DNA of 64,000 nt, from contig JABTUC010000005.1 of assembly GCA_015075545.1 (NCBI GenBank), positions 124,001 to 188,000 of the forward strand, in the 5' to 3' direction. This document shows positions 8,091 to 28,860 of this stretch, in pieces (positions within the stretch are counted from its first letter, which is position 1; each line of letters starts with the position of its first letter). A program made the translations under genes and the position numbers. The notes beneath the pieces were generated by a model, which was given only the letters and a program-made list of their open reading frames with translations, did not search any database and was not told the DNA's origin. Origin of the DNA: Ideonella sp. Lineage in GTDB: Bacteria > Pseudomonadota > Gammaproteobacteria > Burkholderiales > Burkholderiaceae_C.

Positions 8091-8113
8091 CTCGGGTCTC
8101 CTCGGCAGCGGCC

Positions 8114-9298: not shown

Positions 9299-9302
9299 GG
9301 CA

Positions 9303-10100: not shown

Positions 10101-10127
10101 CGGCTTGCCGTGGACCCTAGCGCCGCA

Positions 10128-10400: not shown

Positions 10401-10416
10401 GTCGGGGCTCCCGGCC

Positions 10417-11070: not shown

Positions 11071-11077
11071 GACCCGT

Positions 11078-11106
11078 TGAGTCGCGCGGGGTACCCGCGC
11101 GGTTCA
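11078..11106 (-). promoter_or_regulatory. hrp-box-like motif variant before sctR
   Basis: On the minus strand: TGAACC, a 16-base spacer, then CGACTCA, one mismatch from the CAACnnA block seen elsewhere. The block ends only 7 bases before the sctR ATG, which would make a transcript start at or next to the start codon (leaderless); sctR indeed lacks a ribosome site. The spacer holds a self-complementary GCGCGGGTACCCCGCG, so this could instead be an intra-operon hairpin. Confidence 0.4.
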
Positions 11107-12174: not shown

Positions 12175-12176
12175 GT

Positions 12177-12830: not shown

Positions 12831-12837
12831 GAGGCCC

Positions 12838-13962: not shown

Positions 13963-15053
13963 GTCGGCCTCCGTGGGGACAGCAGTGGCATTGCACTCAC
14001 CACGACATAGGCGCTCCACTGCTTGCCGAGCGCCGCCCAGAAGCGCTGAGCGGCGCCGATGTGCACCCGCACCTCGCACCAGCGCTGCGAGCGCGCCAGC
14101 ACGGGGCCGAGCTGCACGTCGCACGGCAGCGCGGTGCCGCGCGGCGCCGCGTCCGAGGGAACCAGTTGCCGCCCGTGCCGGGGATGGTGTTCCTTGACCA
14201 CGCGCACGTGACACCACGGGGCCGAAGGCGGCAGCGTGCGCCACTGCAGCCGCGCTTCCACGCGCAGACCGCGCAGTGCCAACGGCTCGCCCGGCGCGCA
14301 GGCGCGCGGCCAGAGCACGAAAGCCCAGCCGGGGCCTGCGGGGTCTTGGCCCTGCGGGCACGCCAGCACGACGCAGCGGCCGCGCTGCCATTGCTCGGCG
14401 GCGCACAGCAGCGAGCGCGCGACGATGCGCTGGGCCAGCGCTGCGCGCAACGCCGCGCTCAGCGCCTCGCACCAGGCACCGGCCGCCTCGGCATCGAGCA
14501 CGTCGTCGGGCGCCTGCGGCCGTGGTTGCGCGGGTTGCACGGCCGGCTCGACCGGCTCTTCTGCGGGTGGCTCGTCGCGCGGTCGGTGCGGTGGCTCGCG
14601 ATCGCGCTCGATGCGAGTTGCCGGCTGCTGCCACGCGGGGGCACCCGGTATCGGCAACGGCCAGATCGTCGCCGGCTCGACTTGCAGGCCGGTGAGGGTG
14701 GCGGGCACGAGCAGCGACGCGGGCACCGCCAGCTCGGCCTGTGCCGCGGGGGTGGTCAGCGCGATCGGCTCGTGGGGGCGGTGCATTTCGGCGGGCGGCG
14801 TCGGGGCGCGCCAGCTCGTCTGCACGGTGGCCGCCTCGTGGCCGGCGTCGGCGTCGGCACCGGGCAGCGCGGGCTCCGAAACCGGCACCGAGCGTTCGTT
14901 GCTGGCCGCGCCGGCGGCCAGCGGGGCCTCGCCCGGTCCGGCGGCCGGCTTGCCCGGCACCGCCGGCGGGGCGTCGAGCGCATCGACCGCGGCGGCCCAG
15001 ACGGACATCGCCTGATCGGCTGCCCGGATCGCCGCGACGCGCTCGATTTCCAT
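13959..15053 (-). CDS. Unrecognised T3SS-cluster protein (364 aa)
   Basis: The N-terminal 25 residues may form an amphipathic helix (R-V-A-A-I-R-A-A-D-Q-A). Residues 30-190 are a long Pro/Ala-rich low-complexity region, and residues 190-360 form a folded domain with several Cys and Trp (W-P-R-A-C-A-P-G-E-P-L, C-D-V-Q-L-G-P-V-L, A-L-G-K-Q-W-S-A-Y-V). No signal peptide or membrane helix. It overlaps the kinase by 4 bases. The disordered-then-folded layout resembles secreted length- or needle-control proteins, but no homology could be established. It is encoded in the same unit as sctQ and the two-component system. Confidence 0.7.
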   Translation of the reverse strand: MEIERVAAIRAADQAMSVWAAAVDALDAPPAVPGKPAAGPGEAPLAAGAASNERSVPVSEPALPGADADAGHEAATVQTSWRAPTPPAEMHRPHEPIALTTPAAQAELAVPASLLVPATLTGLQVEPATIWPLPIPGAPAWQQPATRIERDREPPHRPRDEPPAEEPVEPAVQPAQPRPQAPDDVLDAEAAGAWCEALSAALRAALAQRIVARSLLCAAEQWQRGRCVVLACPQGQDPAGPGWAFVLWPRACAPGEPLALRGLRVEARLQWRTLPPSAPWCHVRVVKEHHPRHGRQLVPSDAAPRGTALPCDVQLGPVLARSQRWCEVRVHIGAAQRFWAALGKQWSAYVVVSAMPLLSPRRPT

Positions 15054-15074
15054 GACGCGGGCTGCAGCCGGCCT

Positions 15075-15692
15075 TCAGCGGCTGCGCATCGCCAGGCCCG
15101 CGGGGCCGAGCGTCAGCAGCTTGGGATTCAGGCCGAGCAGTTGCTCGAGGTAGCGGCTGGCGATGCGGCGTACTTCGGCCAGCGGGCCGGCACCCTGCGT
15201 CGAGGCTTTGGCGTGGTTGCCGGTCATCAGTACGCCGAGGATCGCCGTGCGCTCGAAGAAGACCTGGCGCTGCTCGGGCGAAGCGGCATCCCAGTCGGCG
15301 CTGCGGCGGGTCAGGCCGCGCAGCTGGCGCTCCAGGGCATCGAGCATCGGTGCCGTGACTTCGGTGCCGTTGACCGCGCGCAGGTTGGCCGCGACGAACA
15401 GCGCCAGCGCGGCGCCGGCGTCGTCGTGATCGGTGTCGTGCGGACGTACCGCGTCGCGGTAGGTCTGCAGGCAGCGCGTGTACAGCGCCTGCAGTTCGAC
15501 CCGCGTGGCGGCGTCGTCGCTCTGCGCAGCGGCCAGCAAAGCCGGGGCGGTGGGCGTTGCCGCGCGCTCGACCTGCAGCGCCGCGCTGTCGTCGGACGAC
15601 AGCGTGCGCAGCAGCATGGCGGGAATGGCGCCTTGCAGCGCCGCCTCGAGGCGGTTGCGGCCGCTATGGCGGCCCGGACGGGAGTGGGGCAT
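15075..15692 (-). CDS. Unrecognised T3SS-cluster protein (205 aa), first gene of its unit
   Basis: 205 mostly helical residues without signal peptide or membrane segment; conserved-looking blocks are A-L-A-L-F-V-A-A-N-L-R-A-V-N-G and F-F-E-R-T-A-I-L-G-V-L-M-T-G. GAGGAG precedes the ATG, and a perfect copy of the TGAACC-N16-CAACCCA motif lies 58 bases upstream, so this gene opens a separate transcription unit that continues into the 364-aa gene, the two-component system and sctQ. No known T3SS family recognised. A chaperone or cytosolic accessory factor is possible. Confidence 0.7.
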   Translation of the reverse strand: MPHSRPGRHSGRNRLEAALQGAIPAMLLRTLSSDDSAALQVERAATPTAPALLAAAQSDDAATRVELQALYTRCLQTYRDAVRPHDTDHDDAGAALALFVAANLRAVNGTEVTAPMLDALERQLRGLTRRSADWDAASPEQRQVFFERTAILGVLMTGNHAKASTQGAGPLAEVRRIASRYLEQLLGLNPKLLTLGPAGLAMRSR

Positions 15693-15750: not shown

Positions 15751-15779
15751 TGGGTTGCGGTGTCGGGCGCCGCGGTTCA
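15751..15779 (-). promoter_or_regulatory. hrp-box-like promoter (TGAACC-N16-CAACCCA) before the 205-aa gene
   Basis: Minus-strand TGAACC (15774-15779), a 16-base spacer, and CAACCCA (15751-15757) lie in the 109-base gap between sctP and the 205-aa gene, with 58 bases to the ATG. The motif is identical in both blocks and in spacer length to the copies at 21148, 24347 and 27271. Confidence 0.7.
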
Positions 15780-15801
15780 TTGCGCGCGCGCCGGCGCGGC
15801 T

Positions 15802-16479
15802 TCAGCGCGGCGGATCGTCGCGGTCGCGCCGCCGTTCGATGCGCACGTGGTCGACGTCGATGCCGTGCTTGCGCAGCCGCTCGTGCAGGCGCCCGGCGTG
15901 GCGCGACGCCAGGTCGGCGGGGAACGCTGGTGCGCCGATCGTCAGCCCCCACGAGGGCGGTGCGCCGTGGACGACGAGGCGTTCGGCGCGCACCTCGACC
16001 GTGCCGTGCGGGCCACCGATCGACGCCTCCCACACCGCGGGGCGGTCGGGGCCCGCAAGCGGGCCGGTGGGCGGCTCGGCCTGCCGCAGCGCGGTCTCGA
16101 TCGCGGCTCGCGTACCGGTGGCGGTTTCGATGACCACGGGGGAGGGCGGCGGTGCATCGCTGGCGCGCACCATCGGCAGTCCCACCCAGGCCATCAGCGG
16201 TGTACCGCCAACGGGCAAGGCGGCATCGGATGACGCCTTGCCCTGCTCATCGCACGAACTGCCGGTGCCACGCGAGCCGAGCATCGGCAAGCCGGTATCG
16301 GGCGGTGGCGCGCCAGGCTCACCCGTTGCCGGTGGCAGCGCCTTGTCGCGCAGCGCACGCTCGAAAGCGTCGCGCGAATCGCGCGCTTCGGTGCGCGGGC
16401 GGCCCTCGCCGCGGCTTGGCGCGGCGCGCGGCGCCTGGCCGTCCGCGGGCGCGCCGACTGGCGTGCAGTTCAGCTTCAT
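15802..16479 (-). CDS. sctP: Probable T3SS needle-length/substrate-switch protein SctP (YscP/FliK-like)
   Basis: 225 residues. The first 140 are Pro/Gly-rich and probably unstructured. The C-terminal about 75 (V-E-V-R-A-E-R-L-V-V-H through L-R-K-H-G-I-D-V-D-H-V-R-I-E) resemble the folded switch domain of SctP/FliK, which contacts SctU. Its place directly after sctO with a 4-base overlap is the standard N-O-P-Q order, here interrupted before Q. The call rests on position and on the C-terminal domain; overall sequence is poorly conserved in this family. Confidence 0.7.
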   Translation of the reverse strand: MKLNCTPVGAPADGQAPRAAPSRGEGRPRTEARDSRDAFERALRDKALPPATGEPGAPPPDTGLPMLGSRGTGSSCDEQGKASSDAALPVGGTPLMAWVGLPMVRASDAPPPSPVVIETATGTRAAIETALRQAEPPTGPLAGPDRPAVWEASIGGPHGTVEVRAERLVVHGAPPSWGLTIGAPAFPADLASRHAGRLHERLRKHGIDVDHVRIERRRDRDDPPR

Positions 16480-16967
16480 CGCACCGCGCCCGCCGGGCGA
16501 CCTTGATCGTCGAGTTCGCGCTCGGCACGTTGTTCGCGCTCGAGCTGCCGCGCCCGCTTGACCTGTCGCGCCAACCCCTGCACCGCGTCTTCGCGCGCCA
16601 GCGCGCGCGTCAGCTCCGAGCGCGCCTGCTGCAGTTGCTCCTGCGCGGCTTCGAGCGCGCGATCGTCCTGCAACAGCTCGTACTCGTGGCGCTCGAGTTG
16701 GTCGACCAGTTTCTCGAGATGTGCCCCGGTGACGGCCGACCAGCGCGGCAGGGTCGGTGCGAGCGAGGTCACCACGGCCTCGCGCGACGCGACAAGCTGG
16801 CTGCTGAGCGAGGCGATCTGCCGCTGTCGCTCGCGCACGGCCTGCGCGGCCTGATCGGCCGCGGCCTGCGCCGGGGCGATGCGCTCGCGCGCGCGCTGCA
16901 CGCGCAGCGCGCGCAGCCGCGCCAGTTGTTGCGCCTCGTGGGGTTGCGGCAGGCGCGCGGCGTTCAT
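16476..16967 (-). CDS. sctO: T3SS stalk protein SctO (YscO/FliJ-like)
   Basis: 163 residues, almost entirely alpha-helical and charged, with long heptad-like repeats of Ala/Leu/Gln/Glu/Arg, as expected for the two-helix coiled coil that inserts into the SctN hexamer and links it to SctV. The second gene after the ATPase is where sctO normally lies. It starts 46 bases after sctN and overlaps sctP by 4 bases (ATGA). Confidence 0.8.
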   Translation of the reverse strand: MNAARLPQPHEAQQLARLRALRVQRARERIAPAQAAADQAAQAVRERQRQIASLSSQLVASREAVVTSLAPTLPRWSAVTGAHLEKLVDQLERHEYELLQDDRALEAAQEQLQQARSELTRALAREDAVQGLARQVKRARQLEREQRAERELDDQGRPAGAVR

Positions 16968-17013
16968 TGGGGGGCCTTCGTGCCGCGTGCAGCGCCGCTC
17001 GCGTGGTGGCCCG

Positions 17014-18348
17014 TCATGCCACCACCTGCTGCAGCGTTGCGATCGTTTCGGCGATGTCGGTGGCCTCGTCGGAACGCTGCTGCAGCAAAGCCTTGACGGC
17101 GGGCATGCGCTCGATCGCGCGGTCGGCCAGCGGGTCGCTGCCGGCCTGGTATTCGCCGACTCGCAACAGGAACTCGACTTCGTTGAAGCGCGCCATCAGC
17201 GAACGCAACTGCGCCGCGGCATCGCGGTGCGCGCGCTCGGCGACGCGGGTGAAGACGCGGCTGGCGCTGCCGAGCACGTCGATCGCCGGGTAGTGCGCGG
17301 CCTGCGCCAGCGCGCGCGACAGCACGATGTGGCCGTCGAGGATCGAGCGCACCTCCTCGGCCACCGGATCGGAGTTGTCGTCGTCTTCGGCCAGCACGGT
17401 GTAGAAGGCGGTGATCGAGCCGTGCGCGTCGTTGCCCGCGCGCTCGAACAGCTTGGGCAACTCGGCGAACACGCTGGGCGGGTAGCCGCGGCGCACCGGC
17501 GGCTCCATCGCCGACAGACCGAGTTCGCGCAGGCCGCGGGCGAAGCGGGTCACCGAGTCGACCAGCAGCAGCACGCGCTTGCCTTCGCGGCGAAAGCCTT
17601 CGGCGATCGCCGTGGCGGCATAGGCGGCGCGCACGCGCTCGAGCGCCGGGCGGTCGGAGGTCGAGACCACGACCACCGAGCGCGCCAGACCTTCCTCGCC
17701 GAGACTCTCGTCGAGAAACTCGCGCACTTCGCGGCCGCGCTCGCCGACCAGTGCGATCACGTTGACGTCGGCCTTCGCTTGCCGCGCCAGCATGCCCAGC
17801 AGCGTCGACTTGCCGCCGCCGGCCATCGCGAAGATGCCCACGCGCTGGCCTTCGCCGACGGTGAGCGCGGCGTCGATCGCGCGCACGCCGGTGGCCAGCG
17901 GGTGGTCGACGCCGCGGCGCTTCAGCGGCGAGGGCGCATGGGCGTGCAGCGGCGTGTGCTGCAGGCCAGGCCCAGCGGGCGGCGGGCGGTCGTCGAGCGG
18001 GCGGCCGAAGGCGTCGACCACGCGGCCGAGCAGCGCCGGGCCGCACGGCACCTGCGCCTCTTCGGCCAGTGCCTGCACCGCGGCGCCGACTGCGACGCCC
18101 TGCAGCGCACCGTACGGTGCGAGGATCGCCTCGCTGCCGGCGAAGCCGATCACTTCGGCCAGCAGCGGCTCGGCCTCGCAGCGCGTGGCGCCCGGCTCGA
18201 GGATGCGGCACTGCTGGCCGATGCGCGCGCGCAGGCCGGTGGCGCGCAGCACGGTGCCGCCAGCCTGCACGACGCGGCCGAATTCGGCCACCGTGCGGGT
18301 GCCTTGCAGGGTGCGCAGCAGGGCGTCGGTGTCGGTCATCGTGTTCAT
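17014..18348 (-). CDS. sctN: T3SS ATPase SctN
   Basis: 444 residues. Hexameric ATPase that unfolds and releases effectors from chaperones. Walker A is A-G-G-G-K-S-T with Lys180; Walker B is V-L-L-L-V-D-S with Asp264; R-R-G-Y-P-P-S-V-F and S-I-T-A-F-Y-T-V-L are T3SS/F1 family signatures. The ATG at 18348 forms an ATGA overlap with the sctL stop and was preferred to the second ATG at 18339. Confidence 0.97.
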   Translation of the reverse strand: MNTMTDTDALLRTLQGTRTVAEFGRVVQAGGTVLRATGLRARIGQQCRILEPGATRCEAEPLLAEVIGFAGSEAILAPYGALQGVAVGAAVQALAEEAQVPCGPALLGRVVDAFGRPLDDRPPPAGPGLQHTPLHAHAPSPLKRRGVDHPLATGVRAIDAALTVGEGQRVGIFAMAGGGKSTLLGMLARQAKADVNVIALVGERGREVREFLDESLGEEGLARSVVVVSTSDRPALERVRAAYAATAIAEGFRREGKRVLLLVDSVTRFARGLRELGLSAMEPPVRRGYPPSVFAELPKLFERAGNDAHGSITAFYTVLAEDDDNSDPVAEEVRSILDGHIVLSRALAQAAHYPAIDVLGSASRVFTRVAERAHRDAAAQLRSLMARFNEVEFLLRVGEYQAGSDPLADRAIERMPAVKALLQQRSDEATDIAETIATLQQVVA

Positions 18349-18974
18349 CGCTGGCCCACGCCCCACGCCTGCGCCAGGCACGCCAGTTGCTGGTCGAGCG
18401 ACGCGTCGGCGCTGCCCAGGTCGGTGTCGAGCCGGCAATCGTCGGCTGCGCAGCCCTCGTCGGCGAGCACTTCGCAGGTCGGCATCGAGCCGCCTTCGCG
18501 CGCGGTCAGGCTCTGCAGTTGCGCGCGCACGGCTTCGGCGCGCTGCGGATGCACGCGCACCGTCAGGCGCGGTGCCGGCAGCATCTCGCGCGCGGCCTCG
18601 CGTGCCAGCGCGGCCAGGCGCTGCGCGTCGTCGATTTCGCCGAGCAGCTTGCGCGCGACCTGCAGCGCCAGCGCGGCGACGTCGGCGCGGCGCGCGGCCT
18701 CGTGCTGCGCGGCGGTCGCCGTCAGCGTGGCCAAGGTGGCAGCGATCTCGTCGCGTGCCTGCGCGCGGCCCTCGCGCAAGCCCGCGGCGACGCCCTCGGC
18801 GCGGGCGGCCTCGCACGCCGCCTGCACGTGCGCCTGCTGATCGCGGCGCAGCGCATCGAGGTCGTCGCGCAACTGCTGCGCCTCGCGCAGCGCCGGCACC
18901 TCGTCGGCGCGCAGCACCAGGCGCGCCGAGGCGATCGCGACGCCCGCTTCGCGTTGCCACAGTAGAAAGCTCAT
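18345..18974 (-). CDS. sctL: T3SS stator protein SctL (YscL/FliH)
   Basis: 209 residues. An N-terminal region is followed by a helix-rich segment with repeated Ala/Arg/Glu (about 40-115) and a C-terminal FliH-like domain containing L-T-V-R-V-H-P and the T-D-L-G-S-A-D-A-S-L-D-Q-Q-L motif. It dimerises, binds SctN and attaches it to SctQ. It overlaps sctK and sctN by 4 bases each, so all three are translationally coupled. Confidence 0.92.
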   Translation of the reverse strand: MSFLLWQREAGVAIASARLVLRADEVPALREAQQLRDDLDALRRDQQAHVQAACEAARAEGVAAGLREGRAQARDEIAATLATLTATAAQHEAARRADVAALALQVARKLLGEIDDAQRLAALAREAAREMLPAPRLTVRVHPQRAEAVRAQLQSLTAREGGSMPTCEVLADEGCAADDCRLDTDLGSADASLDQQLACLAQAWGVGQR

Positions 18975-19534
18975 GTCGGCTCCTGTTCGGTCGGCGTCAA
19001 CTGCGTTGCCAACTGCATCGCGCGCGCGACCAGCGAGCGGGCGAGCGCGCCGGCCATCGGCGACGGCTGGGTAGGGGTCAGCAGCAGCGCGGCAGCTTGG
19101 CGCAACGCGGCCGACGGCAACGCCGCCAGCAGCACGCCGGCGCCGCAGGCGCGCAGCGCCGGCGCCACCTGATCGGCGCGCTCGATGCGCGGCGCCGGCG
19201 TCACGTCGCGCGGCAGCATGTCGCCGTCGGGCAGTGCGAGCAACGCCTGCAGCAACGCGGTGCCCAGCGCGCGGCTGGCGGCGCCCAGGCGTGCAGCGTC
19301 GATCCACAGCCGCAGTTGCGGCGCCATCACGAGTGCGCCGACCTGTTGCTGCAGCGCGTCGAGTCGTGCGCTGTCCCAGGCCATCCAGTCGGCTGCTTCG
19401 TCCAGCGTGTCCCAGTCGACCGCGCCGACCGCATGCGGGGCGCGCTCGATCAGTTGCTGCGCCAGCGCCGCACGTTGGCGCCGGCGCGCTGCGGCGCACG
19501 ACGCCGCAGCGCTGCAGGATGCCTCGGCGCTCAC
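18971..19534 (-). CDS. sctK: T3SS sorting platform protein SctK
   Basis: 187 residues from a GTG at 19534 that overlaps the sctJ stop (GTGA). The frame extends upstream, but that part is antisense to the folded sctJ frame. The sequence is helical and Ala/Leu-rich with a D-W-M-A-W-D core. Position between sctJ and sctL is the canonical J-K-L order, and the length fits SctK, which bridges SctD and SctQ. Sequence conservation in this family is low, so position carries most of the weight. Confidence 0.8.
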   Translation of the reverse strand: MSAEASCSAAASCAAARRRQRAALAQQLIERAPHAVGAVDWDTLDEAADWMAWDSARLDALQQQVGALVMAPQLRLWIDAARLGAASRALGTALLQALLALPDGDMLPRDVTPAPRIERADQVAPALRACGAGVLLAALPSAALRQAAALLLTPTQPSPMAGALARSLVARAMQLATQLTPTEQEPT

Positions 19535-20400
19535 GTGCGGCTCATCGCGCGGCGAAACGCCGCTGCGGCTTCTTCGCTGGCCTGGCGGGCCGGTGCGGGC
19601 AGCTTGCCCGGTGCGGCAGCCGGGCCAGCGAGCGTCAATGCCTCGCGCGCCGGCGTGCGGCGGCGACGCCACCACAGCAGGCCGCCGCCGCCGAGCGCCA
19701 GCGTGCCTGCGGCACCTCCGGCCAGCAGCGGCAACACGATGGCAGCGGCGCCGGCCTGCGCCGACGCAGCCGCGGCGGGCGCCGGTTCGCGGCTCAGACC
19801 GTCGGCGGCGAACAGCGCGACGGTCACGTTGTCGTACGACAGGCCCTCGATGCTGTTGACCACCAGCGCCTTGATCTGCGGCACCTGCGCGGTCAGGTTC
19901 TTGTCGGGGCGATGCTTGATGAAGACCGAAGCGGCCGCGGGCAGCGGCTTGTCGACCAGCGGGTTGCGCTCGGGCATCACCAGGTGCACGCGCGCGGTGA
20001 CCACGCCGTCGATGTCGGCGATGGTGTTGGCGATCTCCTGCGAGGTGGCGTGCATCAGGCGCGCGCGCTCCTCGAGCGGCGACGACACGAAGCCCTCGCG
20101 CTTGAAGACCTTGCCCATGTTGTCGAAAGTCTCGCGCGGGTAGCCCTGCGCGTTGAGCGTGCGCACCGCCTGCGGGAAGTCGTCGCGCGCGGTGGTCACC
20201 GAGAACTTGCCGCCCTCCTGCGAGGTCTTCTCGGCGGCGATGCCGGCGCTGCGCAGCACCGCCACCATCTCGTTGGCCTGCCGCTCGCTGAGCTGGCCGT
20301 ACAGCTCCTGCTCGGAGCAGGCAGCCAGCAGCAGCGTGGCGGCGGCGAGCGTCGCGGTGGCCAGGCGTGAAAGCAGGGGCATCGTGTGCGGCGCGGGCAT
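19531..20400 (-). CDS. sctJ: T3SS inner-membrane ring lipoprotein SctJ
   Basis: 289 residues. A signal peptide is followed by lipobox L-A-A-C (Cys28). Two ring-building domains follow, with Y-G-Q-L-S-E-R-Q-A-N-E-M and the block A-R-V-H-L-V-M-P-E-R-N-P. A C-terminal membrane segment (about 220-245) with the R-R-R-R stop-transfer ends the core, and a short cytoplasmic tail follows. SctJ forms the inner MS-type ring with SctD. Confidence 0.96.
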   Translation of the reverse strand: MPAPHTMPLLSRLATATLAAATLLLAACSEQELYGQLSERQANEMVAVLRSAGIAAEKTSQEGGKFSVTTARDDFPQAVRTLNAQGYPRETFDNMGKVFKREGFVSSPLEERARLMHATSQEIANTIADIDGVVTARVHLVMPERNPLVDKPLPAAASVFIKHRPDKNLTAQVPQIKALVVNSIEGLSYDNVTVALFAADGLSREPAPAAAASAQAGAAAIVLPLLAGGAAGTLALGGGGLLWWRRRRTPAREALTLAGPAAAPGKLPAPARQASEEAAAAFRRAMSRT

Positions 20401-20413
20401 GACGGGTCTTTCT

Positions 20414-20815
20414 TCAGGACTGTTGGCGGAACATCTGTTGCAGGCCGTCGGACGTGCGGTTGGCGATGTTGGACATCAGCGTGCAGTGGAAGCTGAACTC
20501 CTGCACGCGCGCGGTCAGCAGCACCATGTCGCCCGGGCTCATCGCACCGCCGTCGGCCTTGGCCGCCTGCGCGGCGGCCGACAGCGCATCGGCCTCGGAG
20601 TTGATGCGGTCGAACGGTGCCGAAAGGACCTTGACGGCTTCGCTGGCGGTGCCGGCCGGCCGCGCCTCCAGCCGGGCGCCGGCCTGCGCCAGCACCTGCT
20701 GGAAGGAGCCGAAGTCCGACAGCGACACGCCGTAGCCGGCTTGCACCTGACCGGTCGCGACGCTGGCGGGCGTCGCGACCGCGACCGGCGCTGCGATGGC
20801 GGCTCCGATCGTCAT
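20414..20815 (-). CDS. sctI: T3SS inner rod protein SctI
   Basis: 133 residues. The C-terminal 45 residues form the polymerising helix: M-S-P-G-D-M-V-L-L-T-A-R-V-Q-E-F-S-F, then M-S-N-I-A-N-R-T-S-D-G-L-Q-Q-M-F-R-Q-Q, matching YscI/HrpB-type rods that end in a short Leu/Gln motif. It lies directly between the needle candidate and sctJ. It is exported as an early substrate and connects the gate to the needle. Confidence 0.85.
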   Translation of the reverse strand: MTIGAAIAAPVAVATPASVATGQVQAGYGVSLSDFGSFQQVLAQAGARLEARPAGTASEAVKVLSAPFDRINSEADALSAAAQAAKADGGAMSPGDMVLLTARVQEFSFHCTLMSNIANRTSDGLQQMFRQQS

Positions 20816-20818
20816 GGC

Positions 20819-21127
20819 TTACCCCTTGCGGGCCACGGTTTCGAGCGACTTCGATGCCTCGGACATCGAGGTGTTCGAGCTGGTGGCCATGAAGTTCAGC
20901 TTCGACGCCTCGGCAGTCAGCAGCGTGATGTCGCTGATCTGGTCGCCGCCGTCGGCGACGACCTGCGACTTGTCGGCGACGACCTGCGCCTGCCGATCGA
21001 GCGCGCTGGCCCAGGCCAGTGACAGGGCCTCGAAGAAGTTGGTCGGACGCTTGCCGGTGGTGCCGGAGGTTTGCTGCAGGTTGCCGAGTGCCAGCTGCTG
21101 CAGCGAGTTGATGGGACTGTTGCTCAT
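20819..21127 (-). CDS. sctF: Probable T3SS needle protein SctF (by position)
   Basis: 102 residues, small, polar, without Cys or Trp-rich core (one Trp). The N-terminus is Ser/Asn/Ile-rich with no acidic residue in the first 30 residues, as in exported early substrates. The C-terminal helix (L-T-A-E-A-S-K-L-N-F-M, then N-T-S-M-S-E-A-S-K-S-L) could pack as a needle subunit. It is 3 bases upstream of sctI, follows a perfect hrp-box-like motif with AAGGAG before the ATG, and no other needle candidate exists in the cluster. It is slightly longer than most SctF (80-90 residues), and sequence identity could not be confirmed. Confidence 0.6.
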   Translation of the reverse strand: MSNSPINSLQQLALGNLQQTSGTTGKRPTNFFEALSLAWASALDRQAQVVADKSQVVADGGDQISDITLLTAEASKLNFMATSSNTSMSEASKSLETVARKG

Positions 21128-21147
21128 GGGGAAACTCCTTGCTGGGT

Positions 21148-21176
21148 GGGTTGCGGGTGGGAACTCAGAGGTTCAA
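21148..21176 (-). promoter_or_regulatory. hrp-box-like promoter before the sctF-I-J-K-L-N-O-P unit
   Basis: Minus-strand TGAACC (21171-21176), N16, CAACCCA (21148-21154), 20 bases before the ATG. The first block overlaps the last codons and stop of sctD, so the promoter is built into the end of the upstream gene. Spacer and both blocks are identical in form to the other copies. Confidence 0.7.
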
Positions 21177-22289
21177 CTGGGTCTGCTGGCCGTTGATCTC
21201 CAGCGTCACGCTGCCGGGGCCGATGTGCGTGACGCGGTGGCCGCTGGGCAGCAGCGCGCCGACGAAATAGCGCGAGCCGTCGGCGGTGACGAGATAGGCG
21301 GGCTCCGAGGTGACCAGCGAGGCAATGCGCTTGCCCGGGTCGGTGGACACCGGCGGCAGCGGCGGCGGCAGCGGCTTGGCGGTGTTGCGTACGGCCATGC
21401 GCTCGAGGCCGCGCACGTCGCGGCGGGCCGCTTCTTCGGCGCGCGCCAGCCGGTCGGCGTCGCGCTCGGCCGCCTCGACGTCGATGCGGCCCGGGCCGGC
21501 CACCGTGGTCTTCGCGGTGACGCCGTTGACACGGAACACCTCGGCCACGTTGCGTGCGACGTCTTCGTCGACGATCACGTCGACGCGCGCCTGCAGGCCC
21601 TGGCGCTGCAGCCAATCGTCGAGCTTGCGGCGCGCCGCGGTGGTGGGCAGCCGGCCGCGCAGCGTCGCCTGGCCATCGGCGCCGCGCGCGGCCTGCAGTG
21701 CGGCGAACTCGCTGCCGCTCAGCGTGGCGGTCAACTTGGCGACGACAGGCTCGTCCGCGACCACGGGTGGCGCCGCCGCGGCGTGCGCAACCCACAGCGC
21801 GGCGCCGCACGCCACGAGGATGCTGGCGCCCATGGCCGCCAGCCAGATCTCGGCGCGGCGGTGCAGCGGCAGGGTCGCGACGGCAGCCGCGGGCGCCTGG
21901 CTCGACGCGGCAGCCTCCGTGCCGGCCGCTGCGGGCCAATGGTCGACACCAGCCAGGCCGAAGGCAACGACCAGCGCACCGACGTGCAGCGGGGCATGGA
22001 TCGGCCACAGCGCCTGTGCGCCGGCGCGCAGCGTCTCGCTGCCGAGTTGCACCTCGCCTTGCAGCACTTCGAGAATCGCGTGCGGCGACGCGGCGCTGAT
22101 GCGCACGCGCGTCGGCGGCAGCGCTGGCTCGCGCAGCACGATGTCGGCGCCTTCGCCGGCATCGCCCCCGGCGGCGAGGACGCAAGGGGCGTCGGCTGCC
22201 AGTGGCGCGCGCGCGCCGCGCTGCGGGCCCTGCAGCACCCGAAGCTCGAGGGCGTCGATCGATTCCACGGGAAAGGCAGCGCGATCCAT
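21165..22289 (-). CDS. sctD: T3SS inner-membrane ring protein SctD
   Basis: 374 residues. N-terminal FHA-like cytoplasmic domain (1-125, V-L-Q-G-P-Q-R-G at the start), one membrane helix (about 150-170, I-W-L-A-A-M-G-A-S-I-L-V-A-C), and periplasmic BON/ring-building domains up to about 300 (L-R-G-R-L, D-V-I-V-D-E-D-V-A-R-N-V-A). This is the SctD/YscD/PrgH layout: cytoplasmic end to SctK/Q, periplasmic end to SctC. It begins 20 bases after sctC. Confidence 0.88.
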   Translation of the reverse strand: MDRAAFPVESIDALELRVLQGPQRGARAPLAADAPCVLAAGGDAGEGADIVLREPALPPTRVRISAASPHAILEVLQGEVQLGSETLRAGAQALWPIHAPLHVGALVVAFGLAGVDHWPAAAGTEAAASSQAPAAAVATLPLHRRAEIWLAAMGASILVACGAALWVAHAAAAPPVVADEPVVAKLTATLSGSEFAALQAARGADGQATLRGRLPTTAARRKLDDWLQRQGLQARVDVIVDEDVARNVAEVFRVNGVTAKTTVAGPGRIDVEAAERDADRLARAEEAARRDVRGLERMAVRNTAKPLPPPLPPVSTDPGKRIASLVTSEPAYLVTADGSRYFVGALLPSGHRVTHIGPGSVTLEINGQQTQLNL

Positions 22290-22309
22290 GGTCTGGGCTC
22301 CTGCGCGGT

Positions 22310-24316
22310 TCAGTTGGTCAGCGTGCTGCTGATGCGGGTGCCGCCGCGGCCGTCCTGGCGCGGCGGGCCACTGGGCATCGCGTCGAGGTCGATCACCACC
22401 GATGCCCGCGCCGGTGGTGCGGCCGCGGCGACGGGCGCCGGCGCGATCGGCGCTGCGGTCGGGGCGCTCGGTGCCGCGGTGGCCACTCGGGTTTCGCTGG
22501 CCGGCGACGCGGTGGTCTGCAGCCCTGGGGATGCCGGGGCCGGCGCGGCCGGCGGCAGCGGCGTCGGACCGGAGCGCAGCGTGCCGAGCGTGGCCTGCGG
22601 CGGCGCCGGGCGGCTGCCCGCCATGCGCGGCGTGATCAGGAACATGCGCTCGACGCGGCTGCTCTGCGAGGTCTTGGTCTTGAACAGGTTGCCCAGCACC
22701 GGCACGTCGCCGAGGCCCGGAACCTTGTCTTCGCCATTGGCGTGGGTTTCGCGCACCATGCCGCCGATCAGCAGGCTTTCGCCCTCGGCGATCAGCGCCT
22801 GGGTGTTGACGGTGGAGCGCTCGACGATCGGGATCTGGTCGACCTGGCGGCCGCTGATGTTGCCGTCCTCGACGTTGACCAGCAGCTTGATGCGCGTCTG
22901 CTGCTTGTCGCGGAAGACGTGCGGCGTCACGCGCAGCGTGGTGCCGGCGCTGACGTTGAACAGGTCGACCTGCTCGCGGCCGGCGACGCGAACGAAGAAG
23001 GTCGAGGTGTTGTCGAACACCGCCTCGACGTTCGACAGCGTCACCACCTGCGGACTGGAGACGATGCGCGCGGCGCCCTCGTTCTGCAGCGCCCGGATGC
23101 GGGCGAAGAACTGCCCGAGCGAGCCCAGCACCACCGACGCGACGCCGCCGTTGCCGATACCCGGCACCGAGCCCTGGAACGAGCCGCTGCGGCCGTCGTT
23201 GCTCCAGCGCCAGTCGACGCCGAGTTCGCGCGCCTTGTCGGTGTTGACGTCGATGATCGTGGCCTCGATCTCGAGCGACTGCGGTTCGACGTCGAGCGAG
23301 GCGATCAGTTGCTCGTAGCGCGGCAGGCGCTCGGCTAGGTCGCGCACGATCACCGCGTTCAACCGCGGGTCGGCCTCGATGCGGATCTGGTTCGGGTCGG
23401 GCTGGGCGGTCGGTGCCGAGGCGGCGTCGGCAGGAGTGGCGGTGCGCGCCAGTGCGGTGACCAGGTTGTCCATCGCGGCATTGCGAGCGGCTTCGCCGGT
23501 GGTGGGCGTCTTGGTCGACACGCCCTGGCCGATCAGGCCCTGGCCTTTGAGCGACGGCAGCGTCGGGCGCAGCAGCACCTCGCGGCCGAGCGGGCGGTGG
23601 GTGCCCAGCGAGCCGGGGTCGACCAGCGAGCGCAGGATCGACGCCACGCCGGGAACCACGACCTGGCGGCCGCCGACCGTCATCGTCACGTCCTGCGCCC
23701 AGGCGTAGCGCAGGTAGAAGACGCGGAAATCGGCGGCGCCGGCCGGTGCCGACGGTGCGGCGTCCTGTGCCTGGCCGGCGCGCAGCAGTTCGTCGATCTG
23801 CTCGACGAAGCGGCGCGCGCCGCTGGCGATCATGTTGCCGTCGGCGCTGCGGCGCAGCGTGTTGCGCGGGTCGGTGAGCTGCAGGTCGGCCACTTCACGC
23901 AGCAGCCGGTCGCCCACCGCCGGCGCCACGGCGTAGGTGCGGCGCGCCAGTTCGGATGTCGGCGTCACGTGCATCGCGGCGCCGTCGTAGTAGGTTACGA
24001 GGTTGTAGACGCGCGACACGTCGCGCAGCACCTTGTCGGCGGGGCCGGCGAAGCTGCCGTTGACGTTGCCTGTCAGGCTGGGGCTGATCTGCGCCGGCAC
24101 GTCGATGCTGGCGAACAGATCCTGCAGGAAGGCGCCGATCGGCTGCTCGCGCGCGGTGATCTGCACCAGACGCCCGCCGTTGGGCATCGGCGCCGCGCTC
24201 GCGGCTCCCGCGGCCAGGACGCCGGCGGCCAGCGCGACCCAGGCGCCATGCTGCAGGCCGCTCAGCAGCCACCGGGCGGCTTGCCGAAGGCGCTGGGTGC
24301 AAGCGATGCCGGCCAT
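22310..24316 (-). CDS. sctC: T3SS outer-membrane secretin SctC
   Basis: 668 residues. A signal peptide is cleaved near A-S-A-A-P (about 40-42). N-domains (50-330) are followed by the secretin pore domain with V-P-G-L-G-D-V-P-V-L-G-N-L-F-K (about 540) and the I-E-A-T-I-I-D-V-N block; the C-terminal 110 residues are an Ala/Pro-rich tail ending in a short S-domain-like stretch. The ATG at 24316 has AGGAG 8 bases upstream and was preferred over a frame extension. The first codons (M-A-G) and the whole leader are nearly identical to those of the transglycosylase gene upstream. Confidence 0.95.
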   Translation of the reverse strand: MAGIACTQRLRQAARWLLSGLQHGAWVALAAGVLAAGAASAAPMPNGGRLVQITAREQPIGAFLQDLFASIDVPAQISPSLTGNVNGSFAGPADKVLRDVSRVYNLVTYYDGAAMHVTPTSELARRTYAVAPAVGDRLLREVADLQLTDPRNTLRRSADGNMIASGARRFVEQIDELLRAGQAQDAAPSAPAGAADFRVFYLRYAWAQDVTMTVGGRQVVVPGVASILRSLVDPGSLGTHRPLGREVLLRPTLPSLKGQGLIGQGVSTKTPTTGEAARNAAMDNLVTALARTATPADAASAPTAQPDPNQIRIEADPRLNAVIVRDLAERLPRYEQLIASLDVEPQSLEIEATIIDVNTDKARELGVDWRWSNDGRSGSFQGSVPGIGNGGVASVVLGSLGQFFARIRALQNEGAARIVSSPQVVTLSNVEAVFDNTSTFFVRVAGREQVDLFNVSAGTTLRVTPHVFRDKQQTRIKLLVNVEDGNISGRQVDQIPIVERSTVNTQALIAEGESLLIGGMVRETHANGEDKVPGLGDVPVLGNLFKTKTSQSSRVERMFLITPRMAGSRPAPPQATLGTLRSGPTPLPPAAPAPASPGLQTTASPASETRVATAAPSAPTAAPIAPAPVAAAAPPARASVVIDLDAMPSGPPRQDGRGGTRISSTLTN

Positions 24317-24346
24317 GCGGTGACTCCTAGTTGGGGGAATTGCCGA

Positions 24347-24375
24347 TGGGTTGCGGCACGGCGGCGGCCGGTTCA
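24347..24375 (-). promoter_or_regulatory. hrp-box-like promoter before sctC-sctD
   Basis: Minus-strand TGAACC (24370-24375), N16, CAACCCA (24347-24353), exactly 30 bases before the sctC ATG, in the 168-base gap after sctV. The segment from CAACCCA to the fifth base after the ATG matches the corresponding leader of the transglycosylase gene at 38 of 45 positions. Confidence 0.75.
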
Positions 24376-24484
24376 AGTTGCGTGTGTGGACGGCCGTCGA
24401 TGACCGTCGCCGGCCAGGGAAGACGGGCCGGCTGGCCGACGGCGAGCGGGTGCCCGCCGGGCGGCGGTCGCCGGTGCGCTGGCG

Positions 24485-26452
24485 CTACGCGGTAGCCAGC
24501 ATCGGCGCTTCGGGCGACGGCACGCGCTCGAGGACGTCGAGCTTCAGCGTCGGCATCAGCTCGTGGTACGACAGCACGGGCAGGTCGAAGCACTCGGCCT
24601 CGATCAGCTTGCGCACGTGCCAGCGCACGTCGATCGCCGTCACCAGCGCCGCCGGCGAATGGCGGCGCACCGCGCCGACGATGGCCTCGCAAAGACGCCG
24701 CGCCGCCTCGGGCTCGAGCGCGAGCTGCGAGACGCCGCCATTGACGCGCACCGACTGGCGCAGCATCTCCTCGACCTGCGGCTGCAGCATCAGTGCACCC
24801 AGGCGTCCCTGTGGCGCGGCCATGTGGCTGATCTGGCGACGCAGCGCGACGCGGGTGAACTCGGTGAGCGCCAGCACGTCCTTGTCGCGCTGCGAGATCT
24901 CGGCCAGCGCCTCGAGGATGTCGCGCAGGTTGCGGATCGAGATCCCTTCACTGACCAGGCGGCGCAGCACTTCGGACACGCGCTGCAGCGGCAGCGCACG
25001 CAGCACCTCCTTGACGATGTCGGGCACGTCGGCCGACGCGCGGGTGAGCAGGTTGGTGGTGTCCTGCGCGCCGAGGAACAGCGGTGCGTTGCGGCGCAGC
25101 GCCTGACGCACCGGCTCGCCCAGCGCGACGTGCGGCTCGTCGGGCAGCGCACCCGCGGCGATCGGCACCTCGAACGCCAGCAGCTCCCAGCGGTCGGCCT
25201 CGGCCGGGTCGCTCTGGCCATGGACATGGATTCGCGGCAGGTTCAGGCCGAGGCCGAGCTGGAACTCGTCGAGCACGGCCTCCAGCGTGCGCGTCAGGCG
25301 CTGCGCCTGATGGTCGGCCAGCAGGCGGGCCGGCACGCGCAGCAGCAGCGGCACTGCCGGGCGCTGCTGCGGCAGCGCGGTGGCGGCCACCTGCGACGGC
25401 GTATCCAGGCGCTTGACCAGGCCCTGCAGCGCCGGGTTGCGTGCGTTCATCAGCTTGTCGCGCAGCGCCGGCGTGAGCAACGCGCCGCTGGCCAGCAGCA
25501 CGATGGCCAGCGCGAAGAACACCGCCATCGGGAAGCCGGGCACGAAGGCCATCAGCACGCAGATGCCGCCGGCCACCATCAGCACGCGCGGCTTGGCCAT
25601 CACCTGCTTGCGGATCGAATCGCCGAGGTGCTTGTCTTCCTCGTCGCTGGTGCGGGTGACGATCAGGCCGGCGGCCATCGCACCGAGCAGCGCCGGAATC
25701 TGCGCGACCATGCCTTCGCCGATCGTCAGGATCGAGTACTTGGTGACCGCGGTGCCGATGTCGAGGTCCTGCATCATCACGCCGATAGCCAGGCCGCCGA
25801 GCAGGTTGATGACGATGATCACGATGCCGGCGATGGCGTCGCCCTTGACGAACTTCATCGCACCGTCGAGCGAGCCGTGCAGCTTGCTCTCCATTTCGAG
25901 GTTGCGGCGCCGGCGCTTGGCCTCGTCCTTGTCGATCAGGCCCGAGCGCAGGTCGGAGTCGATCGAAAGCTGCTTGCCGGGCATGGCGTCGAGCGAGAAG
26001 CGCGCGGCGACCTCGGCCACGCGCTCGGCGCCCTTGGCGATGACGATGAACTGCACCACCGTGATGATCAGGAACACCACCAGGCCGACCACCAGATTGC
26101 CGCCGGCCACCACCTTGCCGAAGGTGTCGATGATGTGGCCGGCGTTGCCGTGCAGCAGGATCATGCGCGTGGTGGCGATCGACAGCGACAGGCGGAACAG
26201 CGTCGTCATCAGCAGCACGCTCGGGAACACCGAGAACTCCAGCGGCGAGGCGATGTACACGCCCAGCAGCAGCAGCACCAGCCCCGAAGCGATGTTGAGC
26301 GCCACCAGCATGTCGATCAGCCACGCCGGCAGCGGCAGGACCATCATCGCGACGATGCAGACGATGCCGCCGACCAGCAGCAGGTCGCTGTAGCGCGCGA
26401 ACGCGCCTTCGCGCGTCACCGCGGCGCTGCGGAAGTACGCCGACATGCTCAT
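24485..26452 (-). CDS. sctV: T3SS export apparatus protein SctV (LcrD/FlhA family)
   Basis: 655 residues. Eight membrane segments lie in the first about 320, with the family block F-V-K-G-D-A-I-A-G and the loop R-F-S-L-D-A-M-P-G-K-Q. The C-terminal cytosolic ring domain (about 330-655) forms the nonameric docking platform for chaperone-effector complexes. The ATG at 26452 overlaps the transglycosylase stop (ATGA), so the two are one unit. Confidence 0.97.
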   Translation of the reverse strand: MSMSAYFRSAAVTREGAFARYSDLLLVGGIVCIVAMMVLPLPAWLIDMLVALNIASGLVLLLLGVYIASPLEFSVFPSVLLMTTLFRLSLSIATTRMILLHGNAGHIIDTFGKVVAGGNLVVGLVVFLIITVVQFIVIAKGAERVAEVAARFSLDAMPGKQLSIDSDLRSGLIDKDEAKRRRRNLEMESKLHGSLDGAMKFVKGDAIAGIVIIVINLLGGLAIGVMMQDLDIGTAVTKYSILTIGEGMVAQIPALLGAMAAGLIVTRTSDEEDKHLGDSIRKQVMAKPRVLMVAGGICVLMAFVPGFPMAVFFALAIVLLASGALLTPALRDKLMNARNPALQGLVKRLDTPSQVAATALPQQRPAVPLLLRVPARLLADHQAQRLTRTLEAVLDEFQLGLGLNLPRIHVHGQSDPAEADRWELLAFEVPIAAGALPDEPHVALGEPVRQALRRNAPLFLGAQDTTNLLTRASADVPDIVKEVLRALPLQRVSEVLRRLVSEGISIRNLRDILEALAEISQRDKDVLALTEFTRVALRRQISHMAAPQGRLGALMLQPQVEEMLRQSVRVNGGVSQLALEPEAARRLCEAIVGAVRRHSPAALVTAIDVRWHVRKLIEAECFDLPVLSYHELMPTLKLDVLERVPSPEAPMLATA

Positions 26453-27240
26453 GATTGGTCTCCGCGGGCGATCAGGCGGCCGCTTTCGCTGACGGCGAAG
26501 GTGGTGCTCAGGCGCCGGTACACGGCGAGCACGTCGCGCACGTAGGCCTGCGTTTCCGGGTAGGGCGGCACCGCGCCGCCGGCCTTGTCGACCGCGCCCT
26601 CGCCGGCGTTGTAGGCCGCCAGCACGAGCCGCAGATCGTCGCCGTAGCGCGCGCGCAGCGTGCGCAGGTAGGCGGCACTGGCACGCACGTTGGCGGCGGC
26701 GTCGAACAGGCCCTGCTCGGGGTTGCTGACGCCGAAACGCTTGCCGGTGGCCGGCATCACCTGCATCACGCCGCGGGCGCCGGCCCTCGAAAGCGCGCGC
26801 GGGTTGTGGCGCGACTCGACGTGCGCAATGGCGTGCAGCAGCAGCGGATCGAGCTGATTCTCGCGAGCTGCCGCAATCAGCACCGGCGCCAGCGACATCA
26901 CTCGCAGTTCGTCGCGCGTCGGCGCCGTGCCAGGGTTGTCCTGCGGCAGTGCCGGCGCCCGTGTGCCGGCCGCGGGCGCCGCGGGGGCTGGCGTCATCGA
27001 GATCGCGACCACCGGCCGGTCGTACAGATCGAGCTGCGCCGCGCGCTGCACGGTCATCGGCGCGGCGAGCGACGCGCACTGCGCGTTGATCATGCTGAAG
27101 CGCTCGAGCCGGTCGGCCGACTTCTCGCCGAGCTTGCCGCTGCAGGTCTGCGCCTGCAGCGGGGCGCACAGCGCCAGGCCCAGCGCGGCGAGCGAAAACG
27201 GGGCGCGCCAGGCGCGCAGGTGGGTAGCCGAACCGGCCAT
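26449..27240 (-). CDS. T3SS-associated lytic transglycosylase (SLT family)
   Basis: 263 residues. Signal peptide cleaved after about A-P-L-Q-A (residue 28). The C-terminal SLT domain carries the catalytic Glu in A-I-A-H-V-E-S-R-H-N-P and the motifs G-V-M-Q-V-M-P-A-T and A-A-Y-N-A-G-E-G-A-V. It opens the peptidoglycan so that the injectisome can span the periplasm. It opens the unit with sctV and has its own hrp-box-like promoter and AGGAG. Confidence 0.92.
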   Translation of the reverse strand: MAGSATHLRAWRAPFSLAALGLALCAPLQAQTCSGKLGEKSADRLERFSMINAQCASLAAPMTVQRAAQLDLYDRPVVAISMTPAPAAPAAGTRAPALPQDNPGTAPTRDELRVMSLAPVLIAAARENQLDPLLLHAIAHVESRHNPRALSRAGARGVMQVMPATGKRFGVSNPEQGLFDAAANVRASAAYLRTLRARYGDDLRLVLAAYNAGEGAVDKAGGAVPPYPETQAYVRDVLAVYRRLSTTFAVSESGRLIARGDQS

Positions 27241-27270
27241 GCGGGGACTCCTGATTGGGAGGACTACCGA

Positions 27271-27299
27271 TGGGTTGCGCGGCCGATCGCCGCGGTTCA
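27271..27299 (-). promoter_or_regulatory. hrp-box-like promoter before the transglycosylase-sctV unit
   Basis: Minus-strand TGAACC (27294-27299), N16, CAACCCA (27271-27277), 30 bases before the ATG, the same distance as at sctC. Confidence 0.75.
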
Positions 27300-27344
27300 A
27301 TGCCCGCCGCCGGCGGTACAGGCGGCCTGCGGCGGGGCCGCGCT

Positions 27345-28751
27345 TCAGCGCGAGCGCAGCTCGACCGAATCGAGCGCGAGCGCGCCGCCCGAGGCCTTGA
27401 CGAAGGCCTGGCGCACCTGCTCGAGCGTGGCCTTGGGCGGCAGCGGCTGGAAATCGCTGCCGTTGACGCTCGCCGGCAGCTCGGCCAGCACGTCGCGCTC
27501 GGTGGCGAAGCAGGTCACCGTCTCGGGCACTCCGCGCGGATTCATCGTCAACTCGAAGCGCATCGAGCCAGGCAACTGCAGGCCGGTGGCCGGTGCCACG
27601 CGCGAGTCGCGCCGGAAGCGGTTGGGAAAGAAGCGGGTGAGCTGGCGCTTCTCGTCCTGCAGGTAGCAGTACACATGCGCGTCTCGGCTGGGCCGGATCG
27701 ACAGTTGCACGGCCTCGCCGCGCGCCAGCCGGCGGCCCTCGGCCGACGAGGCGACCTGCAGGGTCAGCGGCGACGCCGGCACCGCTGTGGCCGTGGCGGC
27801 CGCGGGTACCGTGGCACGCAGCCTGGCCTGCAAGCCGGCCAGGTCGGCGCCCAGGTAGGCCTTGAACAAGTCCAGCGAGAGTTTCGGTTCGGGCGACAGG
27901 CCGAGCGCGCTGCGCGTGCGCACCACCGCCTCCTTGAAGACGTTGCCGACGGTGCCGTCGATCGGGCCATCGTACGCCTGGCGCATGCGCAATTGCTGCT
28001 GGAAGTAGGCCACGAGTTCGGTCGGGCGTGCGGCCATCGCGTCGTACCAGTCCTGCGTCTGGGCACCCACCGCGGGGTTGTCGGCGCCGATGCCGATGCA
28101 GCGCCAGTACGGCACCTTGGCGAAGCGGCCGAACAGCTCGATCGCCGCCAGCTCCGCCAGCGCGCGCTGTGCCTGCGCGAGGCCGGCGGCGGGCACCGCC
28201 AGCGGCTGGCCGAACTCGACGAACTCGACGCGGCCATCGCGCAGCAATGCGGCGTTGCGCGTCGCGGCACCAGGGACGACGCTCATGTCGTGCCTGCTCA
28301 GCAGCGCCAGATCGAGCCCGATCGTGCCGCCGTCGAGCGTGCGCAGCGTGCCGCGCAGCGCGTACTGTGGCGTCACCGCGTAGGGCGCACCCGCCGTGGC
28401 GCCGCTCGCGGCAGCCTGGCTGCCCGCGGCGTCGGCAACGATCAGGCGGATCGCGCGGCTGCGCTGCGTCATGTCGGAGACCGCGGCGACCAGCACGTCG
28501 CGCGCGCCGGTCTGCGCCTTGCGCTGCGACGGGTCGGCCAGTTCCTCGATGGCCACCGAGAGGTCGCGCACGCCGTGGTCGAGCAGCAGCGTGTCCATGC
28601 AGCGCAGTGCCGGTCCGAACGAGCTGGTCGGTGGCACGCTGGCGAGCGGCCCGGCGCTCGGTGTCTGGCCGCTGGTGGCGCACGCGGCGGCCAGCAGGCA
28701 GGCGCCGAGCGCGGCGGCGAGTCGGGCGAGGCGGCCCGCGATGCTGGGCAT
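27345..28751 (-). CDS. CsgG-like / DUF4384 lipoprotein, probably T3SS-regulon member
   Basis: 468 residues. Lipoprotein signal with L-A-A-A-C (Cys24). Residues 45-200 resemble the CsgG-type periplasmic fold (repeated beta strands, R-G-T-L-R-T-L-D-G). Residues 230-290 contain a peptidoglycan-binding-like motif (Q-A-Y-D-G-P-I-D-G-T-V-G). The C-terminal part (about 340-450) reads as DUF4384: L-S-I-R-P-S-R-D-A-H-V-Y-C-Y-L-Q and F-F-P-N-R-F. It lies just upstream of the transglycosylase in the same direction and has a hrp-box-like motif 80 bases before its ATG, so it appears co-regulated with the secretion machine. Its role is unknown; an envelope or pilotin-like function is only a suggestion. Confidence 0.8.
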   Translation of the reverse strand: MPSIAGRLARLAAALGACLLAAACATSGQTPSAGPLASVPPTSSFGPALRCMDTLLLDHGVRDLSVAIEELADPSQRKAQTGARDVLVAAVSDMTQRSRAIRLIVADAAGSQAAASGATAGAPYAVTPQYALRGTLRTLDGGTIGLDLALLSRHDMSVVPGAATRNAALLRDGRVEFVEFGQPLAVPAAGLAQAQRALAELAAIELFGRFAKVPYWRCIGIGADNPAVGAQTQDWYDAMAARPTELVAYFQQQLRMRQAYDGPIDGTVGNVFKEAVVRTRSALGLSPEPKLSLDLFKAYLGADLAGLQARLRATVPAAATATAVPASPLTLQVASSAEGRRLARGEAVQLSIRPSRDAHVYCYLQDEKRQLTRFFPNRFRRDSRVAPATGLQLPGSMRFELTMNPRGVPETVTCFATERDVLAELPASVNGSDFQPLPPKATLEQVRQAFVKASGGALALDSVELRSR

Positions 28752-28831
28752 TGAAATCCTTCGTGCGGTCAGGCGCGGACCGGCGCGGCCGGTCGGCCTG
28801 CCAGCGTGGTTGTACACCGTGAAGCAGTGGC

Positions 28832-28860
28832 TCGGTTGCCTGCGCGCGCCGATCGGTTCA
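28832..28860 (-). promoter_or_regulatory. hrp-box-like promoter before the DUF4384 lipoprotein gene
   Basis: Minus-strand TGAACC (28855-28860), N16, CAACCGA (28832-28838), 80 bases before the ATG, in the 134-base gap after the ETF-ubiquinone oxidoreductase gene. It marks the upstream border of the secretion cluster. Confidence 0.65.

Follow-up and report, generated by a model that had tools for sequence, protein, structure and literature searches.

A TGAACC-type promoter motif before a type III secretion cluster of Ideonella sp. and a candidate sigma factor of its genus

In Pseudomonas syringae, the sigma factor HrpL reads sites of the form GGAAC-N16-17-CCACNNA, and one candidate site with the -10 block CAACCAA was called equivocal (PMC4149516), which gives CAAC-type -10 blocks some precedent near HrpL. 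Transcription of hrpL is itself sigma-54-dependent (PMC5263251). The HrpL site of Herbaspirillum is GGAACC-N15-CCACTCAAT, and six HrpL-dependent operons are predicted for its type III secretion system (T3SS) (PMC3487950). Here we describe a T3SS cluster of Ideonella sp. within 64,000 nucleotides of contig JABTUC010000005.1 (positions 124,001 to 188,000, forward strand; hereafter the window), in which six copies of a TGAACC motif precede six putative transcription units. We propose that one alternative sigma factor of the extracytoplasmic function (ECF) type reads these six sites as -35/-10 promoters (TTGAACCG-N14-GCAACYCA) and that its regulon spans the genus and Azohydromonas caseinilytica, a reading to which we give a probability of roughly 0.68. 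The Bsc T3SS of Bordetella has a dedicated sigma factor, BtrS.

The window's own assembly (G000) is 85% complete, with 3.69 Mb in 13 contigs. It was compared with its T3SS-bearing sister G001 (68% complete, fragmentary), the other genus members G002 to G005, making six with G000, and 54 further relatives, for a total of 60 genomes. Like the P. syringae HrpL regulon, the set described here is of ECF type, occurs genome-wide and before T3SS units, and has a GAAC(C) -35 block. However, its consensus is TGAACC-N15-GCRACNNA, and the operon of the candidate sigma factor is preceded by a motif copy and also encodes an anti-sigma-like and a caspase-like protein, partners that HrpL is not known to have. 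As in the HrpL-type system of Herbaspirillum, a betaproteobacterial T3SS has six predicted sigma-dependent units, but here the T3SS has no linked sigma gene. The resemblance to Bordetella, where the T3SS sigma factor is paired with a secreted anti-sigma factor, BtrA, is one of role; by contrast, a caspase-like gene is part of the sigma operon here, which in G004, G005, and A. caseinilytica adjoins an IcmF-type cluster. Generic ECF/anti-sigma pairs share the Sigma70 r2 and r4 domains (G004 copy), the adjoining anti-sigma-like gene, and the motif before the sigma operon itself, and differ in their regulon, which here comprises a T3SS, a C39 exporter neighbourhood with small GG-motif peptides, and DUF4384 proteins. 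Among the results listed, a literature search held nothing on a TGAACC motif with a T3SS or on an Azohydromonas T3SS, and a search on this T3SS clade by genus and topic words found nothing.

The motif and the units of the secretion cluster

By scanning the window with a loose pattern (TGAACC-N15..17-CNACNNA), we found six copies, all on the minus strand, against an expectation of 0.15. In 100 dinucleotide shuffles, the mean was 0.15 and the maximum 2, and six copies were never reached. The first-pass annotation had listed five copies, four ending in CAACCCA and one in CAACCGA. All five exist with those endings, one of them shifted by a single base (21147-21175, not 21148-21176), but a sixth, ending in CGACTCA and lying before sctR at 11078-11106, had been overlooked. 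The base before the second block is G in all six, which gives the better form TGAACC-N15-GCRACNNA (the strict pattern). The called starts follow the motif ends at distances of 8, 20, 31, 31, 59, and 81, where 8 means 7 nt between; gene starts came from our own gene caller. Sequence no more than 120 nt upstream of a same-strand start makes up ~6.0% of strand positions in the window, so the chance of all six copies falling there is ~5e-8. The units, each read as a single transcript from its gene spacing, are as follows.

28832..28860, minus strand: promoter motif of unit 1, TGAACC-N15-GCAACCGA, 81 nt before gene 27345-28751; conserved in G001 and A. caseinilytica
27345..28751, minus strand: unit 1, lipoprotein-like protein with DUF4384 (PF14326, 1.1e-16)
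27271..27299, minus strand: promoter motif of unit 2; conserved in three species
26449..27240, minus strand: unit 2, SLT transglycosylase (PF01464, 1.6e-26)
24485..26452, minus strand: unit 2, sctV (PF00771, 2.4e-186, scanned as the longer frame 24485-27169)
24347..24375, minus strand: promoter motif of unit 3; no copy at the equivalent place, before sctC, in A. caseinilytica
22310..24316, minus strand: unit 3, sctC secretin (PF00263, 2.3e-39, scanned as frame 22310-24376)
21165..22289, minus strand: unit 3, sctD (Y4YQ_C, 1.9e-8; Yop-YscD_cpl, 0.002, below its cut-off)
21147..21175, minus strand: promoter motif of unit 4, overlapping the end of sctD; A. caseinilytica has TGAACT at the equivalent place, before a 102-amino-acid gene
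15802..21127, minus strand: unit 4, small genes (102 and 133 amino acids), sctJ, 187-amino-acid gene, sctL, sctN, weakly FliJ-like gene, 225-amino-acid gene
15751..15779, minus strand: promoter motif of unit 5; also a copy before the A. caseinilytica homolog, 209 nt from the called start
11155..15692, minus strand: unit 5, DUF6683 protein, 364-amino-acid gene, and the three genes that follow
12838-13962, minus strand: unit 5, FixL-like histidine kinase (match below NCBIfam cut-off)
12177-12830, minus strand: unit 5, FixJ-like regulator (match below NCBIfam cut-off)
11155-12174, minus strand: unit 5, gene at the sctQ position (no Pfam match; named by position only)
11078..11106, minus strand: promoter motif of unit 6, 7 nt before the sctR ATG; conserved in G001 and A. 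caseinilytica
7770..11070, minus strand: unit 6, sctR (PF00813), gene at the sctS position (named by position only), sctT (TIGR01401) and sctU (TIGR01404), both above cut-off, FliO-like gene (PF04347)

The matches in unit 4 are SctJ (TIGR02544, 8.7e-66), SctL (1.7e-8), SctN (7.3e-84), and FliJ (0.011, below cut-off). Jointly, the six units carry all T3SS core genes that could be named. Since only 7 nt separate the -10 block from the ATG of sctR (11070-11106) in three species, the sctR mRNA is predicted to be leaderless or nearly so. The FliO-like protein lies directly after sctU in this injectisome operon (7770-8090, minus strand; 6.4e-11). By tblastn, it has relatives in 21 of 90 T3SS loci, and the G001 and A. 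caseinilytica copies also match Pfam FliO; in a 2025 paper on FliO (PMC12403147), a term search met injectisome terms in the reference list only.

Taken together, the two conserved blocks, the fixed ~16-nt spacing, and the GAAC-type -35 are features of ECF-type promoters, and the motif is very likely a promoter set of this kind. Compared with the HrpL form GGAACC-N15/16-CCACNNA, the six sites differ by T for G in block one and by A (once G) for C in block two, with similar spacing. This one-base difference per block is the point in favour of a true, unlinked HrpL (ECF32-like) running a T3SS-dedicated regulon, close to what the first-pass annotation had supposed.

Distribution of the motif in the genome and its relatives

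Across G000, the loose pattern matched 17 times and its reversed control 10 times; taken by itself, the loose form therefore barely exceeds background. However, 12 of the 17 fit the strict pattern, of which ~0.5 would be expected in this genome at the window's base composition. All 12 precede a same-strand start by 8-119 nt and fall outside called genes, whereas none of the other five loose matches is within 120 nt of a start. Half of the strict sites (6/12) are outside the T3SS and precede two related small proteins (contig C7), further small proteins (C6:387435 and C8), a class-V aminotransferase (C6:412568), and an AAA ATPase (C1:99626). A T3SS-specific regulon is therefore not supported by the genome-wide scan, in which effectors were not sought among these genes. 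An ECF42-like gene beside the C6:387435 site was considered and set aside, as the site precedes the small gene after it, with the same layout in G004.

The wider comparison points to a genus-level regulon. The GCAAC form occurs 58 times in the six genus members (11, 4, 13, 6, 15, and 9) against 2 for the reversed pattern, while the 54 other relatives have 21 against 27, which is background level. In fetched pieces of other genomes, 40 of 44 strict sites are within 125 nt of a start. Bases that the search pattern leaves free are also biased across 44 distinct sites outside the window, of which some are orthologous: T precedes TGAACC in 32/44 and G directly follows it in 37/44, and in the second block, G never occurs at the first N and C occurs at the second in 32/44. 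The small-protein pair with its two motif copies recurs in G000, G001, G002, G004, and G005, and the N16-CNACNNA form is found 20 times vs. 3 reversed in G004 and 13 vs. 2 in G005.

Both G004 and G005 were without an sctV match at E<=1e-100, so the motif is present in genus-mates in which no such gene was found, and a set dedicated to the T3SS is not supported. An sctC search at E<=1e-20 matched G000 only; it also missed fragmentary G001, which has sctV, and is thus a weak search. The motif copies of G004 precede a TolC-like gene, a Ser/Thr kinase with DUF4384, small GG-motif peptides, and the ECF operon described below, in a region with DotU-OmpA, IcmF, TagF, FHA, PP2C, and a C39 ABC exporter. 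The Pfam scan of this region covered the G004 copies; G005 and A. caseinilytica were judged similar from gene order and sequence starts. DUF4384 proteins lead motif-driven units in both the T3SS and the IcmF-type machinery. Separately, runs of small GG-motif peptides occur at L157 10967-11775 and L158 9952-11105, near a C39 ABC exporter with a cyclic-nucleotide-binding domain, and are possibly a family of exported peptides.

Several of these results speak against an HrpL-type system, namely the six non-T3SS sites and the abundance of the motif in genus-mates without an sctV match. Moreover, none of the eight PF04542 (sigma-70 region 2) matches in G000 (E<=0.001) lies inside the window, just as the first-pass annotation had noted for ECF genes. 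HrpL-like promoter variants with GGAACC gave only 2 matches among related T3SS loci, below the reversed control. We regard a true HrpL as very improbable.

Those related loci were 86 pieces, comprising the best 80 loci from an sctV search and six fetched stretches. The strict motif is missing from 83 and present in G001 (2 sites), A. caseinilytica (4), and one Vibrio locus (1). Additional A. caseinilytica copies stand before sctR and the DUF4384 lipoprotein, and before sctR, the transglycosylase, and the lipoprotein, the blocks are kept in three species while the spacers vary. The unit 1 DUF4384 protein has tblastn matches in 2 of 90 T3SS loci, both from motif-bearing lineages.

These loci also bear on whether the blocks could be the binding site of an activator, such as the FixJ-like regulator of unit 5, instead of -35/-10 elements. 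A FixL/FixJ-like pair (12177-13962) does lie inside the cluster. However, by tblastn at E<=1e-5, the kinase has relatives in 23 and the regulator in 17 of the 90 T3SS loci, yet the motif is missing from nearly all such pieces, and the blocks are asymmetric, with fixed spacing 8-119 nt before starts, leaving little room for this alternative. Given these relatives in loci without the motif, the pair may be an older T3SS regulator that is now under the sigma factor.

Among neighbouring genes, an RTX-repeat protein (4443-5117, plus strand; PF00353) adjoins the T3SS, with similar genes, by eye, at the corresponding position in both G001 and A. caseinilytica; upstream of it is a weak motif-like TTGCACC-N14-GCAACTCA, partly kept in G001 and not in A. 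caseinilytica. Gene 6837-7526 (minus strand), after the sctU unit, has no Pfam match, has positional counterparts in G001 and A. caseinilytica, and is preceded by a degenerate motif-like site both in the window and in G001. Weak sites at 4353 (plus) and 7684 (minus) showed partial or no conservation and were left uncounted.

A candidate ECF sigma factor and its operon

With a profile built from G004 and G005, orthologs of one candidate ECF sigma factor were found in G002, G003, G004, and G005 (E<=2.1e-109) and in A. caseinilytica (2.9e-95), whose genome also has a T3SS with motifs. The operon opens with one or two small genes, of which one is OmpA-like in G004, followed by the sigma factor, the anti-sigma-like gene, and the caspase-like gene; the G004 matches of the latter two (3.4e-9 and 9.7e-15) are below NCBIfam cut-offs. 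In all five genomes in which the operon was found, its gene order is kept and an aligned motif copy stands in front of it, with short contigs of 10.9 and 3.6 kb in G002 and G003. The nearest matches outside this group are in G051 (7.6e-62) and G029 (9.8e-36), and no strict motif was found in the 20 kb fetched around them. In the species that have the operon, its sigma factor probably reads the motif.

In a 45-row ECF tree, the five orthologs form a clade (100/100) apart from three T3SS-linked ECFs (100/99), which again disfavours HrpL; the tree includes no verified HrpL, and several rows are partial or in wrong frames (e.g., G001_C31, G004_C4_414k, and G005_C24_130k). The first-pass annotation's unlinked HrpL-like factor thus holds for an ECF-type set covering the T3SS with no linked sigma gene, but not for the HrpL-like, T3SS-specific part, given the non-T3SS sites, the separate sigma clade, and the different operon partners. 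The three T3SS-linked ECFs themselves (L138 15185-16018, L140 1782-2450, and L113 9021-9653, one clade within the best 80 T3SS loci of other bacteria) are possible T3SS-dedicated sigma factors.

A different sigma factor might instead read the ECF-type promoters in this T3SS lineage, with the sigma/caspase-like operon a mere fellow member of the regulon. The absence of the candidate gene from both T3SS-bearing metagenome-assembled genomes of the genus and the persistence of 12 strict sites in G000 favour this. Five ECFs were found in G000, of which the L024 type alone is shared with the five relatives sampled (G001, G003, G004, G005, and A. caseinilytica; G002 was not sampled). It was rejected as the reader because a different conserved motif, GGAATAAT-N14-CGTA, stands upstream of it in 5/6 genomes (not G004). 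The remaining four had no match of at least 38% identity in the fetched A. caseinilytica sigma loci (8 of its 11 PF04542 matches); the ECFs fetched from the genus members were a subset. An RpoE-like clade, named from context, was also turned down, with no TGAACC motif in five fetched loci. On this balance, another reader is unlikely.

A proposed secretion regulon and its meaning for the genus

Several findings weigh against placing the candidate sigma factor in the window's own strain. Its ortholog was not found in G000 at E<=1e-15, and G001 has only another ECF (1.8e-18). Neither assembly has the C39 exporter ortholog (only ~32-34% paralogs) or the hydrolase adjoining the ECF locus, although an ortholog of the latter was also not found in sigma-bearing G003. 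When 89 cluster proteins were searched against both ends (6 kb) of 11 G000 contigs and the two smallest contigs whole, only ABC-transporter matches of 31-39% appeared, and no specific one. By our own estimate, loss of the locus from both assemblies through incompleteness alone would be a ~5% event (0.15 x 0.32). In addition, start positions depend on our gene caller, and the proposed link between sigma factor and motif is by co-occurrence only. Still, an RpoE-like sigma factor present in G001, G003, G004, G005, and A. caseinilytica is not among the G000 matches, so sigma genes may well be missing from this assembly. In G000 and G001, either the ECF locus is unassembled in both or another sigma factor took over. 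Because the candidate gene is missing from the 85%- and 68%-complete assemblies, the last link, the sigma factor in the window's strain, is one that we infer; that its gene lies in the unassembled part of the genome is the weakest step of our reading. We nonetheless consider it probable that the same sigma factor is at work in this strain.

Under the proposed promoter reading, an envelope or secretion signal would free the ECF sigma factor from its anti-sigma factor, and the resulting holoenzyme would read TGAACC/GCRACNNA, including the promoter of its own operon. The sigma operon, the small proteins, and the secretion machinery of the species would then be switched on jointly, with targets differing by species: the T3SS here, and the IcmF/DotU/TagF/FHA cluster and C39 exporter in others. 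Because the motif in close relatives precedes the sigma operon and a different secretion cluster, the T3SS appears to have been added to a regulon that was already in place, instead of being controlled by a classical HrpL switch. More tentatively, and at somewhat less than even odds, one ECF sigma factor with its anti-sigma and caspase-like partners could be a genus-level secretion switch. Its ancestral targets would be the IcmF/DotU/TagF/FHA/Ser-Thr-kinase/C39-exporter genes, one lineage would have placed six promoters before an acquired T3SS, and DUF4384 proteins would be an interface shared by both machineries.

These results name a testable sigma/promoter pair for a T3SS clade of environmental bacteria. 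They also offer a clean candidate case of regulatory capture, in that T3SS relatives with the same core genes are without the promoter, while the genus has the regulon also where a T3SS was not found. Because A. caseinilytica holds both the sigma factor and the T3SS, capture is directly testable there. If true, the same switch that commands another secretion module now commands an injectisome.

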